NCBI GenBank assembly: GCA_020719845.1
Contig: DYPP01000001.1
Location: 39,509-103,508 of the forward strand
DNA: 64,000 bases
Direction: 5' to 3'
Origin: Treponema denticola
GTDB taxonomy: Bacteria > Spirochaetota > Spirochaetia > Treponematales > Breznakiellaceae
In this document: piece by piece, positions 33,906 to 39,694 of the stretch
How positions within the stretch are numbered: the first letter of the stretch is position 1
How the letters are laid out: each line of letters opens with the position of its first letter
Made by a program: the position numbers and the translations under genes
Notes under the pieces: generated by a model
What the model saw: the letters and a program-made list of their open reading frames with translations, nothing else
Told to the model about the DNA's origin: nothing
Databases searched by the model: none

Positions 33906-34682
33906 GTGGCCGCCGTTTCCGGAGGCAGCAAACGTTCGTCGACGCTGCCCTGGACGTTTCTGGGCATCCTGGCGCTGATCTTCTGCTGGGAAATCGCGGC
34001 GCGCCTGGCCGCCGCCGAGATCCTCCTGCCCGGTCCCGTCCCGACGCTGCTCCGGCTCGGTACCCTGCTGACCAACGAAGGCTTCCTGGCCGCCCTGGGG
34101 TACAGCCTGGTCCGGGTGCTCTGGGGAATAGTCTTGTCCGTGCCTCCGGCGGTGGCGGTGGGCATCGCGGCGGGCTTGGACCGCCGGGTATTCGCTTTTC
34201 TGCGTCCCTTGTTTGCTCTCGTTTCGGCTACCCCCGTCCTTTCGGTTATCCTGATCGCCTTCCTCTGGTTCGGCCAGGAGCGGACGCCGATTTTTGCGGC
34301 CTTTCTGATCATTTTTCCGGTCATGACCGCCACGACCATCGCCGGCGTCGGCGCGGTGGATGCGCGCCTGCGGGAAACCCTGCGGGTATATCGATTTTCC
34401 CGTTACCAGATTCTCAGGCATCTGTATTTTCCCAGTCTGATGCCCTTCATCATCGGCGGGCTTCGTTCTTCCCTGGCGCTCAGCTGGAAGGTCGTCGTAG
34501 CGGCGGAAGTCATCGTGCAACCCTTGTACGGTTTGGGTACGGGCATGCAGAACGCCAAAGCCCAACTGGAAACCACCGAGCTCTTTGCCTGGACCGCGGC
34601 GACGGTCATCATCGCCGCTGGTACGGAATTGCTGCTCCTTCATCGCCGGCGGTATTCGCCGTCAAAGGGCGACGCGCCATGA
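33906..34682 (+). CDS. ABC importer permease, SsuC/TauC type
   Basis: 258 residues from GTG 33906, about six membrane helices. The cytoplasmic EAA-type loop reads VDARLRETLRVYRFSRYQILRHLYFPSLMPFIIGGLR, which docks on the ATPase. It forms the membrane channel of the importer. The stop overlaps the ATPase start by ATGA. Confidence 0.9.
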   Translation: MAAVSGGSKRSSTLPWTFLGILALIFCWEIAARLAAAEILLPGPVPTLLRLGTLLTNEGFLAALGYSLVRVLWGIVLSVPPAVAVGIAAGLDRRVFAFLRPLFALVSATPVLSVILIAFLWFGQERTPIFAAFLIIFPVMTATTIAGVGAVDARLRETLRVYRFSRYQILRHLYFPSLMPFIIGGLRSSLALSWKVVVAAEVIVQPLYGLGTGMQNAKAQLETTELFAWTAATVIIAAGTELLLLHRRRYSPSKGDAP

Positions 34683-35389
34683 CGCTGGAGATGGAAGGCC
34701 TGGGCTTTTCCTACGGGGATCGTCTTCTGTTCGCTGATTTTTCCCTGTCCTTCGAAGACCGGCGTATTACGTCAATTTTGGGGCCTTCGGGATGCGGCAA
34801 AACGACGTTGCTGAAAATTCTCGCCGGGCTCATCGTACCCCAGCAGGGTCGGGTGCGCGCCGACGACGATCATCCCGTCGCCTTTGTATTTCAGGAACCG
34901 CGGCTGCTTCCTTGGCGCACGGTGCATGAGAACGTAGCCCTGTCCCTGGTGCGCCGGTTCGGAAAAGAGGGCGCCCGGACCCGGACGCGTCGATTTCTGG
35001 ACCTGGTGGGTCTGGGAGACCGGGCCGGCGCCTATCCGGAAGCGCTTTCCGGAGGCCAGCGGCAACGCGTGGCCATCGCCCGGGCTTTCGCTTTTCCCGC
35101 GTCGGCGATCCTGATGGATGAACCGTTCCAGGCGCTGGATCTGCCCCTGCGCATTCAGCTCATGGACTTGACCCGTCGGCTGCTGGACGAAGAACCCAGG
35201 ACCGTGGTCGTCGTCACCCACGATCCCCGGGAAGCCATCTACCTGGCTTCCCGGGCGGTGGTGCTGACCGCGGCGCCGGTCCGGGTGGCGCTGGACCTGG
35301 GCATGGACCTTTCACCGGCCGACAGGGCTTATTCTTCCCGGGCGCACGCCGAGCTGGAGGCGCGCCTGTTCGCCGCCCTCTCCGCATGA
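34679..35389 (+). CDS. ABC importer ATP-binding protein, SsuB/TauB type
   Basis: 236 residues. Walker A is GPSGCGKTTLL, the Q loop VFQEPRLLPWRTV, the signature LSGGQRQRVAIARAF, Walker B AILMDEPFQALD, and the switch His is in VTHDPREA. The sequence from the Q loop through the signature is typical of the nitrate/sulfonate/taurine subfamily. Its last 61 bases overlap the 3' end of the opposite-strand ecfT gene. Confidence 0.93.
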   Translation: MTLEMEGLGFSYGDRLLFADFSLSFEDRRITSILGPSGCGKTTLLKILAGLIVPQQGRVRADDDHPVAFVFQEPRLLPWRTVHENVALSLVRRFGKEGARTRTRRFLDLVGLGDRAGAYPEALSGGQRQRVAIARAFAFPASAILMDEPFQALDLPLRIQLMDLTRRLLDEEPRTVVVVTHDPREAIYLASRAVVLTAAPVRVALDLGMDLSPADRAYSSRAHAELEARLFAALSA

Positions 35390-36069
35390 CCCCGGGATTC
35401 CAGGGCCAGGGCGGTCTCGACGGCGCTTTCGACCAGCCGCTCCGTCGCCAGAGGCAACAGCAGCACGAATTTCCGCAGCCCCTTTTTGCCGAGGCGGGCG
35501 CGGTAGGCTTCTTCGGCGCTTTCCCAAATTTCAAATATCCGGGGCAGAAAAGACAGCATCAGGGCAATGCTCAAAGAAATTCCCGGCGCGTCAAGCCGTT
35601 TTGCCCATGCGGAAGCCCAACCGGCGCGCCGCCCTCGGACCAGCAGGCGCAGTGGCTCCTGGATTGCCTTTTCGACGCGGGCCAGGGAATCCCGAACCTG
35701 GCCGGTGGTGGTAACGGCAAAGAACAAGGCTCCCCCGGCAAAGGCGACCAGGACCGCCCCGGCGTAGCGCAAGCCTTCGGCCAAACCGGCGGGATCATAG
35801 GCCAGGGGAATGAACCTTACCGTCCGCAACAGGACCGCGCAGGATACGGTCCAGACCAACGGCCCGCTGCCGGCCAGGAGTCCGGCCGGTTTTATGCCTG
35901 CGGCGATCGCCCCGGAAAGGACCAGGACGACGCCCGGAACCAGGGCCAAGGGGCCGTAGACGAAGGGCGCCGCCGACAGCGTCAGGTACGCCAGGAGCTT
36001 CAGCGCCGGCGGAAGCGCATGGATCGGTGAAGTTCTTGCTTGATAAGAAAAGGGCGTTATCCGAGCCAT
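35329..36069 (-). CDS. bioN: ECF transporter T component, probably BioN
   Basis: 246 residues from ATG 36069. There are about four to five membrane helices and two C-terminal coupling motifs of the Ala-Arg type, recognisable as RARLGKKGLR and ALESRGHAE. Those contact the ECF ATPase. It overlaps the ATPase gene by 13 bases and follows bioY in the same transcript, so it should be the energising T subunit of a biotin importer. Its 3' end overlaps the plus-strand ABC gene. Confidence 0.85.
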   Translation of the reverse strand: MARITPFSYQARTSPIHALPPALKLLAYLTLSAAPFVYGPLALVPGVVLVLSGAIAAGIKPAGLLAGSGPLVWTVSCAVLLRTVRFIPLAYDPAGLAEGLRYAGAVLVAFAGGALFFAVTTTGQVRDSLARVEKAIQEPLRLLVRGRRAGWASAWAKRLDAPGISLSIALMLSFLPRIFEIWESAEEAYRARLGKKGLRKFVLLLPLATERLVESAVETALALESRGHAERAANRRASSSACAREE

Positions 36070-36815
36070 GTGCAATCCCGCACGCCGGCGTAGCAGCGGC
36101 GCGGGTCCCGGACGCCGTAGACGGGATCCAGACGATTCAGCACGGTTTCCGGATCGCCCTGATCCCGGACCGATCCCTGATGCAGAATCACCAAATTGTC
36201 CGCGAAGGCCAGGACCTTCTCCAGCTCGTGGGTGAGCACCACCACGGTTTTGCCGGAGGATTTCAACTGTTTCACCAGGTCCAAGACCTGAACGACCCCC
36301 GGCCAATCCAGGTTGGCGAAGGGTTCGTCCATGATCACCGCCTCGCAGCCCATGGCCAGAATCCCCGCCACCGCCAGGCGCCGTTTTTCACCCCCCGAGA
36401 GTCGTCGGGGATGCCGAAGCCGTTTTTCGGTCAAGCCCAGGCTGCGCAGCGCCGTTTCGACCCGGTCCCGCACTTCAGCCGGGGACAAGCCCAGATTTTT
36501 GGGGCCGAAGGCGACCTCTTCCTCCACGGTTTCGCCGATGATCTGGGCATCCGCATCCTGAAACACCAAGCCGACCGCCCGTCTGACGGCGGAAAGATCG
36601 TTCTGGATATCCCGGCCGTAAAAAAGGATCCGCCCCGCGCTGGATTCGGTCAAACCGACCAGAAGGCGCATCAGCTGGGTTTTTCCGGAGCCGTTGGACC
36701 CGGCGATCACCAGGCAGACGCCGGCGGGGATATCCAGGTTGATGCCCGTCAGCGCTCTGGTGCCGTCGGGGAAAACCTTGTCCAGGTCCTGGACGCGGAA
36801 CAAAAGCTTAGCCAT
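36057..36815 (-). CDS. bioM: ECF transporter ATPase, probably BioM
   Basis: 252 residues. Walker A GSNGSGKTQLM, Q loop VFQDADAQIIG (the DxxxQ form of ECF ATPases), signature LSGGEKRRLAVAG, Walker B AVIMDEPFANLD, and switch His in LTHELEKV. EcfA family. Only one ATPase gene is present, as is usual for BioMNY. It overlaps bioY by 8 bases. Confidence 0.9.
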   Translation of the reverse strand: MAKLLFRVQDLDKVFPDGTRALTGINLDIPAGVCLVIAGSNGSGKTQLMRLLVGLTESSAGRILFYGRDIQNDLSAVRRAVGLVFQDADAQIIGETVEEEVAFGPKNLGLSPAEVRDRVETALRSLGLTEKRLRHPRRLSGGEKRRLAVAGILAMGCEAVIMDEPFANLDWPGVVQVLDLVKQLKSSGKTVVVLTHELEKVLAFADNLVILHQGSVRDQGDPETVLNRLDPVYGVRDPRRCYAGVRDCTWLG

Positions 36816-37362
36816 GCAGGTGGTCTGCGGTCACCCGTCGCAGCCGACGGGCCACGACTACCGCCAAAAATCCCTTGGCCAGGTCGCCGGGAAGAAAGGG
36901 TAGGGCTCCGACGGTAAGGGTTTTAAGCCAATCTATCCCCAGCACCGCCTGTAGCCTGATCAATCCGGGAATATAGATGGACAGCAAACCGATAAAAGCC
37001 GCCAGGGCTAGTCGCTGGTACGACGTGGCGCGATCGGCCCGGAGTTTTCCGGCTACCAGACCCGCAGCGAAGGCTCCGGCCAGATAGCCGACAAGGTAGC
37101 CCCCGGTGGGTCCCAGCAGATGGGCGACCCCGCCGGAAGCTCCGGAAAAAACCGGCGCCCCCAAGCTGCCTACCAGCAGATAGAGGGCTACCGCCGCGCC
37201 GCCGCGCACGGGCCCCAGTACCATACCGGCCAGCAGGGCAAAGAAATTCTGCAGCACCAGGGGAACCGGCGAAAAGGGGAGGGGCACCGCGATGAAGGTG
37301 CCCGCCGCGATCAGGGCGGCAAACAATGCGGTCAGGGCGGTATTCACCAGTTTTATCGACAT
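36808..37362 (-). CDS. bioY: Biotin transporter substrate-binding protein BioY
   Basis: 184 residues, five to six membrane helices. The BioY hallmarks VPLVLQNFFALLAGMVLGP and GPTGGYLVGYLAGAF are present. BioY binds biotin with high affinity and with BioM and BioN forms an ECF importer. GGAG precedes ATG 37362. It is downstream of a broken biotin ligase gene in the same transcript. Confidence 0.93.
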   Translation of the reverse strand: MSIKLVNTALTALFAALIAAGTFIAVPLPFSPVPLVLQNFFALLAGMVLGPVRGGAAVALYLLVGSLGAPVFSGASGGVAHLLGPTGGYLVGYLAGAFAAGLVAGKLRADRATSYQRLALAAFIGLLSIYIPGLIRLQAVLGIDWLKTLTVGALPFLPGDLAKGFLAVVVARRLRRVTADHLHG

Positions 37363-37376
37363 CAGTAGACTCCTGT

Positions 37377-38055
37377 TCAGGGTATGAAGATCAGCGAGGC
37401 CGCCCCGGGTGCGTAGCGCCGAGGCCCCTGAGGTTCGTCCAGGACCGCCCGGCCCCGGGCGTCGATCCCCAGGAAGCGTCCGACCCGGCGTGCCCGTCCC
37501 GGGTCCGGATCTTGAACGGATCCGTGCCGCGGATCGAGGACCGCAACCCGGCGCTGTCGGCCTTCAGCCAGCTGGTTCCAGAGGGCCGCCAGTTCCCGGG
37601 GGCCGGCTTTTTCATTTTCCAGAATTTACCGTTCCTTTAGAACCGCGTTCAAAAGGTCCCGGCGGGAAATCCTGCGGTCGGCCAGGGCGGAACAGGCTCC
37701 CGCCTCCGGGGCGTGGACCTCGTTGTTGACGTTGATGCCCACGCCGAGGGTCAGCCAGGTCAGGCGGTCGCCTTCCGCCCGCAGTTCGGACAGAACCCCG
37801 GCCACCTTCCGCCCCTGGACGTAGACGTCGTTCGGCCAGCGCAGCCGGGCCGCGGTGCCGGTCAGGGCGCCGACAGCCGTCTTCACCGCCGCTCAACGCA
37901 TAACCGGCGCGGCGCAGCGCTTCTACGGCCTTCCAGATCGCGACCCGGGAGATTTTTGCTTCCGCCGCCAGAACTTCCCCGGAAACCGGTTTTCCCGGAG
38001 CGTACCGCAGGCGGGCGAGGATGGCTGCTTTGGTGGAAATTGTACCGTTAACCAA
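37377..38055 (-). pseudogene. birA: Decayed biotin protein ligase/repressor gene
   Basis: Three parts of BirA are readable. From TTG 38055 a winged-helix domain runs about 55 codons (KISRVAIWKAVEALRRAGYAL). Around 37885-37900 the match jumps, in another frame, to AVKTAVGALTG...LRWPNDVYVQGRKVAGVLSEL. About 100 codons are missing there, including the biotinyl-AMP GRGRRGR loop. That second frame then meets an in-frame TAA at 37626-37628, after which the C-terminal SH3-like domain continues in the same frame (VGRFLGIDARGRAVL) to TGA at 37377. Deletion, frameshift and stop together rule out a working ligase. The HTH part could still be made with a meaningless tail. Confidence 0.85.
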
Positions 38056-38073
38056 TATTTAAGTATGGTTGAC
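38047..38073. promoter_or_regulatory. Possible BirA-type operator at the birA start
   Basis: GTTAACC (38047-38053) and GGTTGAC (38067-38073) are an inverted repeat with one mismatch, 13 bases apart. The BirA consensus is TTGTAAACC, 14-15 bases, GGTTTACAA, so each half matches about 6 of 9 and the spacing is one short. It overlaps the birA start codon and the lnt end. Confidence 0.25.
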
Positions 38074-39694
38074 GCAATCCGTGTCGCTTGTCAAGGCGGG
38101 TAAGGGAGCGGACGCCCCGGAGCAGGTACAGGAGGCCCAAGAGCGCCAGCAGGGCGGGAAACCAGTCCCCCAGGAGCGCGTAGGCGGTGGGAATCTGCGC
38201 CGCCTGGATGGGTACGACCGCAGCCAGGTATTCTTCGGAAAAGAGGGGCGCCGACGCGATGACCCGACCTTCGGCGTCGATCACGGCGGTGACGCCGCCG
38301 TTGGTGGCCCGCACCAGCACGCGACGGTTTTCCACCGTTCGGAACCGGGCGGCGGCCAGGTGCTGGGTTTCCGCGGAGACGGTACGGGACCAGGAATCGT
38401 TGGTGATATTGATCAGTATATCCGCTCCGCGTCGGAAGAAACCGGCGCAGACCGACGCAAAGGCGTCTTCAAAACAGATGGGCACGCCAAAACGGAGCGG
38501 ACGCCCCGAAGGTGTCGGCGTTTCCATGACCGTGGCTTCGGTTCCCGCGGTCCAACCCCCATCCAGGCCCACCACGTTCTTCATGAAACTGCGCATCCAG
38601 GCGTATTCCCAGAAAGGAATGCCTTCGGCAAAGGGCACCAGCTGACGTTTGGCGTAGGTGAAGGGAACCGAAGCGTCCGGATTGATCAGGATCGCCGCGT
38701 TGGAAGCGTCATAGGTGTCCCAGTCCAGCACGATCGGCGCACCGGTCAAAAGGGGTACGCCGAGTTGCGCAAGAAAGGGTATGAGCGGATCCTGGGCCGG
38801 ATTTTTCCGGAAAAAGGGGAGATAATCCTCAAAAGGTCTTCGCAGGACGGTTTCGGACCAGACGATCAGGGCCGGTCGGTCAAATCCGGGCGTGTTTTCC
38901 GGCGCGGACGGCTTTTCAAGGGGAAATTCGGTCCATCCACGCCGGCTGAGTCGGATGAGCGTGCGCAGGGTATCCAGTTCGCCCAATTCCCAGGAGTCGG
39001 CGTTGTGCTGGATGAGCAGCATCGGCACGCGGTCGATGACCGGCGTCGGGTTGGACAGGCGGTAGCCGCCGTAGGCGTTGAACCAGATAAAAATAGCCAA
39101 AAATACGACGCTGCCGCGGACAAATGCCGTCCGGGTCCAGCGGACGGACCAACCCGCGCGCCGGAAGGCCGAGGTGCCGCCGGCCAGGAGGGCGGAGGAC
39201 AGGGCGAGCATGAAGCTCAGCCCGTACACGCCCAGGCTGTCGGCGATCTGGATCATCAACGGCCGGTCGTTGACCGCGTAGGCGATCAAACCCCAAGGAT
39301 AACCCAGAAAACCGATCGATTTTTGCCATTCCCACACCGTCCAGACCAGGGCGATCAGAAAGGGCCGCAGCGCGGTGTTGCGCTCCAAACCAGCCCGGCG
39401 GATGAAGCCGGCCACCAGGATGTGCAGAAACCCGTAAGCCACGCTGGTGGCTCCGATGGTCCAGACGGCGTAATCTTCAAAAAAATAGAGCCAATAACTG
39501 GTGGCGGCGTGGGAAAAAACGCCGAAAACGAAGCCCAGCAGGGCGGACGCGGCGTAGGATTTGGTCCGGGTCAGCGCGAAAAAATAGGGTGCCAGACAAA
39601 AAAAACCGATCCACGCGGTACCGTAGGGCGCAATTTCATTAGGAAGGGACAGGGCAAAAAGCAGGACCGAAGCGAGGGTGGCGATAAAAAGCAT
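38048..39694 (-). CDS. lnt: Apolipoprotein N-acyltransferase
   Basis: 548 residues. About six to seven N-terminal membrane helices (PYGTAWIGFFCLAPYFFAL, LGYPWGLIAYA) precede a nitrilase-type domain. The catalytic triad is visible: Glu in IVWSETVLRRP, Lys in KRQLVPFAEG and Cys in GVPICFEDAF. It adds the third acyl chain to lipoproteins in the inner membrane, in keeping with the lipoproteins in this window. The stop overlaps the birA start by 8 bases, so it may head the biotin-uptake transcript. AGGG lies five bases before the ATG. Confidence 0.95.
   Translation of the reverse strand: MLFIATLASVLLFALSLPNEIAPYGTAWIGFFCLAPYFFALTRTKSYAASALLGFVFGVFSHAATSYWLYFFEDYAVWTIGATSVAYGFLHILVAGFIRRAGLERNTALRPFLIALVWTVWEWQKSIGFLGYPWGLIAYAVNDRPLMIQIADSLGVYGLSFMLALSSALLAGGTSAFRRAGWSVRWTRTAFVRGSVVFLAIFIWFNAYGGYRLSNPTPVIDRVPMLLIQHNADSWELGELDTLRTLIRLSRRGWTEFPLEKPSAPENTPGFDRPALIVWSETVLRRPFEDYLPFFRKNPAQDPLIPFLAQLGVPLLTGAPIVLDWDTYDASNAAILINPDASVPFTYAKRQLVPFAEGIPFWEYAWMRSFMKNVVGLDGGWTAGTEATVMETPTPSGRPLRFGVPICFEDAFASVCAGFFRRGADILINITNDSWSRTVSAETQHLAAARFRTVENRRVLVRATNGGVTAVIDAEGRVIASAPLFSEEYLAAVVPIQAAQIPTAYALLGDWFPALLALLGLLYLLRGVRSLTRLDKRHGLRQPYLNIG

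Follow-up and report, generated by a model that had tools for sequence, protein, structure and literature searches.

How can a bacterium keep a complete biotin importer when the biotin protein ligase gene that leads the same operon is in pieces? The question is raised by the window, a stretch of 64,000 nucleotides from a draft genome assigned to Treponema denticola (contig DYPP01000001.1), in which the remains of birA lie between lnt and the bioY, bioM, and bioN genes (Table 1). The organism is probably a gut treponeme, judging by those named relatives whose bioY is closest to its own.

Table 1. Features of the birA-bioYMN region, in coordinates of the window
Feature	Position	Strand	Basis and remarks
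lnt	38048..39694	-	Directly upstream of birA and overlapping its start; LNT_N E=4e-27
Putative BirA operator, GTTAACC-N13-GGTTGAC	38047..38073	.	Lies across the TTG start of birA and the 3' end of lnt
birA pseudogene, 5' part	37870..38055 (3' limit approximate)	-	TTG start at 38055 and N-terminal HTH, frame A
Deletion joint in birA	37873..37892	-	About 98 codons gone, frame switch; alignment to HTH-birA of 16 relatives
birA pseudogene, second half of catalytic region	37629..37892	-	Frame B, still with the motifs RWPND and GVGINVNN
Nonsense codon, in-frame TAA	37626..37628	-	birA frame B
birA pseudogene, C-terminal domain	37377..37625	-	Frame B in register, normal stop at 37377-37379; alignment to relatives
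bioY, biotin S component, intact	36808..37362	-	PF02632 E=2e-41; synteny
bioM, ECF ATPase, intact	36057..36815	-	ABC_tran E=7.6e-28; 57-66% identity to bioM of most relatives
bioN, ECF transmembrane component, intact	35329..36069	-	CbiQ E=4.5e-4; synteny

The operon and the remains of birA

The genes for the S component, ATPase, and T component of an ECF biotin transporter (BioMNY) are adjacent and open in the window. The CbiQ score of bioN falls under the curated cut-off, and its product is 27-44% identical to those of the bioN genes that occupy the same position in relatives. The order birA-bioY-bioM-bioN is kept in eight related genomes (G048, G056, G106, G017, G140, G064, G043, and G016), and the contig of a ninth, G052, ends at bioM with the order kept up to that point; all nine have an intact birA orthologue at the equivalent place. 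The lnt-birA order is also found in G017 and G052 (loci L098 and L103). On the other side of the operon a permease and ABC ATPase gene pair (33906-35389) adjoins bioN, and G048 has the same arrangement.

Both ends of birA are still recognizable. The N-terminal helix-turn-helix (HTH) domain matches Pfam HTH_11 (E=1.5e-7) and is 42-63% identical to the HTH domains of the relatives' proteins. The catalytic piece matches positions 91-133 of the PF03099 profile (E=1.1e-8) and positions 80-200 of TIGR00121 (E=2e-18), with one TAA inside the latter match, whose 67.3 bits lie under the cut-off of 83.1 bits; in a phylogenetic tree the fragment groups with the HTH-birA clade. The GRGRxGR biotinyl-AMP loop and the first half of the catalytic region fall within the approximately 98 residues that have been lost; when the G048 protein is taken as reference, the loop (GRGRAGR there) is among the roughly 98 residues that are absent. 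From the HTH to the C-terminal domain the remnant is not one open frame, as it is interrupted by the frame switch at the joint and by the TAA farther on. The assembled sequence does carry the birA lesion, and the original prediction of a birA destroyed in an intact biotin-uptake operon, through loss of about 100 codons including the biotinyl-AMP loop, a change of frame, and an in-frame TAA, is borne out. Its count of three separate lesions is too high, since the deletion itself shifts the frame; there are two independent lesions.

The two frames share as many as 20 bases at the joint, which read plausibly either way (GGEDG closes the HTH part and AAVKTA opens the catalytic part); this would fit a deletion between short direct repeats. 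The closest birA among the relatives is only about 50% identical to that of the window, too distant a reference for dating the two lesions or putting them in order.

An artefact of assembly or strain mixture might give the same picture, if the population carried an intact birA and reads had been misjoined or a minority deletion variant picked. In keeping with such an origin, the assembly is a draft in 252 contigs and contains many scaffold gaps, and the birA frame of another family member, G153, is also broken, which could itself be error. However, the joint contains no N, its shared bases (about 20 at most) would be short for a false join at the usual k-mer sizes, and the independent nonsense codon lies about 245 bases beyond it. 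An artefact thus seems unlikely, although it retains some weight.

A putative BirA operator at the birA start

A palindrome, GTTAACC-N13-GGTTAAC, is present with three or fewer mismatches at the birA start in 24 of the 29 HTH-birA loci of relatives, usually with the ATG inside it, and the window site differs from it by one mismatch. Taken within the window by itself, the match is no better than chance (a mean of 1.11 is expected); of 5000 stretches of 200 bases drawn at random from the relatives' loci, 354 score equally well, a figure that includes stretches over the site itself. The operator claim depends instead on the conserved position across relatives, and the palindrome is read as a putative BirA operator from conservation rather than from binding.

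With a conserved, open HTH and an operator-like palindrome both kept, the surviving HTH piece might be thought to act as a functional stand-alone repressor of bioYMN. DNA binding by the BirA proteins that have been studied requires dimerization as well as biotinyl-AMP held in the catalytic domain (PMC4016012). That region is gone here, which makes a stand-alone repressor very improbable; because the studied proteins must make and hold biotinyl-AMP in order to bind DNA, BirA repression has presumably been lost.

The need for a biotin ligase

A contig elsewhere in the assembly (C204, locus L043) carries an open fatty-acid operon of fabG, fabF, fabZ, an enoyl reductase gene, accB, accC, accD, and accA; the gene names were read from the translations, and the biotin carboxylase and carboxyltransferase domains were identified with Pfam. 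The AccB protein scores above the TIGR00531 cut-off and carries an EAMKM motif, so that the check for a biotin carboxyl carrier protein that had been proposed has a positive outcome, and AccC scores above the NF006367 cut-off. The only other clear matches to biotin/lipoyl domains are two lipoyl E2 proteins; of the remaining matches, one is on a 3.8-kb contig in a frame rivalled by a longer one and another lies beside an efflux pump. Acetyl-CoA carboxylase thus appears, from these domain matches, to be the sole biotin enzyme of the genome, and, as far as can be judged from the intact accB, accC, accD, and accA genes, the cell needs a biotin ligase.

The same operon bears on the notion that the entire biotin route is being lost, with birA as its first casualty. 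The broken birA would agree with it, and 50 of the 150 family genomes sampled, many of them incomplete, have no biotin carboxylase match. In this genome, however, all four acc genes and bioYMN are open, so such a loss is scarcely credible. The loss of biotin enzymes is rejected on account of the open acc operon, and the suggestion in the original prediction of a cell in transition to losing them finds no support.

Biotin ligases of related genomes

Besides this one, 31 of the 150 sampled family genomes have an HTH-birA match (as counted from the rows listed). Two or more TIGR00121 matches are found in 27 of these 31, and in all 14 of those that are at least 90% complete. The second ligase lacks an HTH, and the 11 sequences sampled form a clade apart from the HTH type with a support of 100/100. 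Among 12 sampled loci its neighbors include thrH (10 loci), era (9), and serS (5). Comparison with relatives shows intact birA orthologues at the same place and, as the usual condition in the family, a second, HTH-less ligase. One family member, G092 (94% complete), has a biotin carboxylase match and no TIGR00121 match, which may be a gap or a ligase-less case.

The search for a second ligase in this assembly

Searches of the assembly with PF03099 (to E=10) and TIGR00121 (to E=1) found no second ligase; apart from the broken birA and a single chance match, they returned two LplA-type proteins. This outcome might be taken to mean that there is no dedicated biotin ligase at all, and that AccB is biotinylated by another enzyme (an LplA-type protein, for example) or is active without biotin, as just these two LplA-type proteins were found besides the broken birA. 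But both score as lipoate ligases, being above the cut-off of PF21948 and having TIGR00545 as top match (below its cut-off); one of them adjoins lipA, and the lipoyl E2 proteins are present as substrates for them. The searchable assembly is moreover demonstrably incomplete, and a cell without a dedicated ligase is accordingly judged highly unlikely.

The incompleteness is most evident in the usual neighbors of the short ligase. A thrH query found no match in the assembly, and an era query found only matches of 41% or less, on proteins resembling Der and MnmE, and no orthologue; the same queries match relatives at 63-81% (thrH) and 74-87% (era). The assembly is estimated to be 99.93% complete, yet era, thrH, and the second ligase were not found in it. 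All of the sampled contigs shorter than 2.5 kb, 32 in number, read wholly as N, and the other contigs sampled contain 26 scaffold gaps of exactly 100 N; the absence of a gene from this genome is therefore weak evidence. A tblastn search with serS, thrH, era, and the short ligase likewise gave no match in the sampled stretches (up to 1.19 Mb, including the window and N). Since thrH and era are missing together with the short ligase, an assembly gap is indicated, and the simplest account is a missing block that holds all three in spite of the 99.93% completeness. The second ligase is probably unassembled or masked in this genome. Thus, the part of the original prediction that called for another ligase elsewhere finds agreement in all 14 near-complete relatives, and the ligase itself was not found in this assembly.

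Contig C9 (locus L160) is collinear with G056 in the genes beyond era, and the collinearity stops before a 100-N gap; as a trace of the missing ligase block this is suggestive only. In detail (about 7600-10025 of L160), collinearity ends after a patatin-like gene, and a sensor-like fragment, the 100-N gap, an AAA ATPase gene, and the end of the contig follow.

Probable loss of a regulatory ligase

The best explanation of the locus, to which we give a probability of roughly 70%, is the ordinary loss, caught in progress, of the regulatory ligase, redundant in a lineage that has two, with the group I ligase absent from the searchable assembly. The ancestral operon would have been birA-bioY-bioM-bioN, headed by a group II BirA that was both ligase and biotin-responsive repressor. 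The biotinyl-AMP loop would have gone with a deletion of about 98 codons, which may have occurred between short direct repeats and which put the remainder out of frame; the nonsense codon would have arisen either after or before it. The cell would survive on a group I ligase, the HTH-less type that is standard in the family, which would biotinylate AccB, and bioYMN would continue to import biotin. Repression at the surviving operator would be lost, so that bioYMN is expected to be expressed constitutively from an upstream promoter.

Two sets of observations in relatives bear on how far such losses have gone. In G153 (locus L064, contig C5, about 1008-2043) the frame of the HTH-birA breaks within the biotinyl-AMP loop and an open second ligase is present elsewhere in the genome; either birA has been broken independently there, or the break is a sequencing error. 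In three treponeme MAGs (Hs463_bin133, Cc175_bin106, and Gsp477_bin60; loci L079, L080, and L081, respectively), bioY-bioM-bioN has no birA upstream in the DNA examined. The scanned stretches of L080 and L081 contain no operator-like site, and L079 has only a weak match, with different spacing and far upstream. In view of the birA-less MAGs and the G153 break, the window looks like an intermediate of a loss that is finished in other lineages, and a recent and recurrent loss of birA in a two-ligase lineage is the best reading.

Comparison with known systems

No new system is found here. A literature search on biotin in termite-gut treponemes and on pseudogenes of birA yielded nothing specific. 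The locus offers a snapshot of a vitamin-regulated operon that is losing its regulator, in which the ligase-repressor is broken and an operator-like site and the importer are left, and it permits comparison of the control of biotin uptake in related bacteria with and without the BirA repressor. It also carries a warning for draft genomes, where what looks like the loss of a sole ligase can be a gap in the assembly, as this nominally near-complete genome also lacks era and thrH.

Two-ligase precedents are known from Lactococcus lactis, which has one ligase with and one without an HTH, and from Francisella, which has two birA copies (PMC4861984). The relatives studied here resemble both in arrangement, as they combine a group II and a group I ligase (BirA1 and BirA2, respectively, in L. 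lactis) with BioY; this genome differs in having a broken group II copy and, in the searchable assembly, no group I copy. With the group II BirA proteins of Escherichia coli, Bacillus subtilis, and Streptococcus suis, which accompany a BirA-regulated BioY, the window gene shares the HTH-catalytic-C-terminal domain order, a palindromic operator, and linkage to bioY; it differs from them in being a pseudogene without the biotinyl-AMP loop and in that the putative operator spans birA's own start codon. The bioYMN operon of Corynebacterium glutamicum agrees in its three importer genes and in their order; there birA is presumably not the lead gene, whereas here a decayed birA leads the operon.
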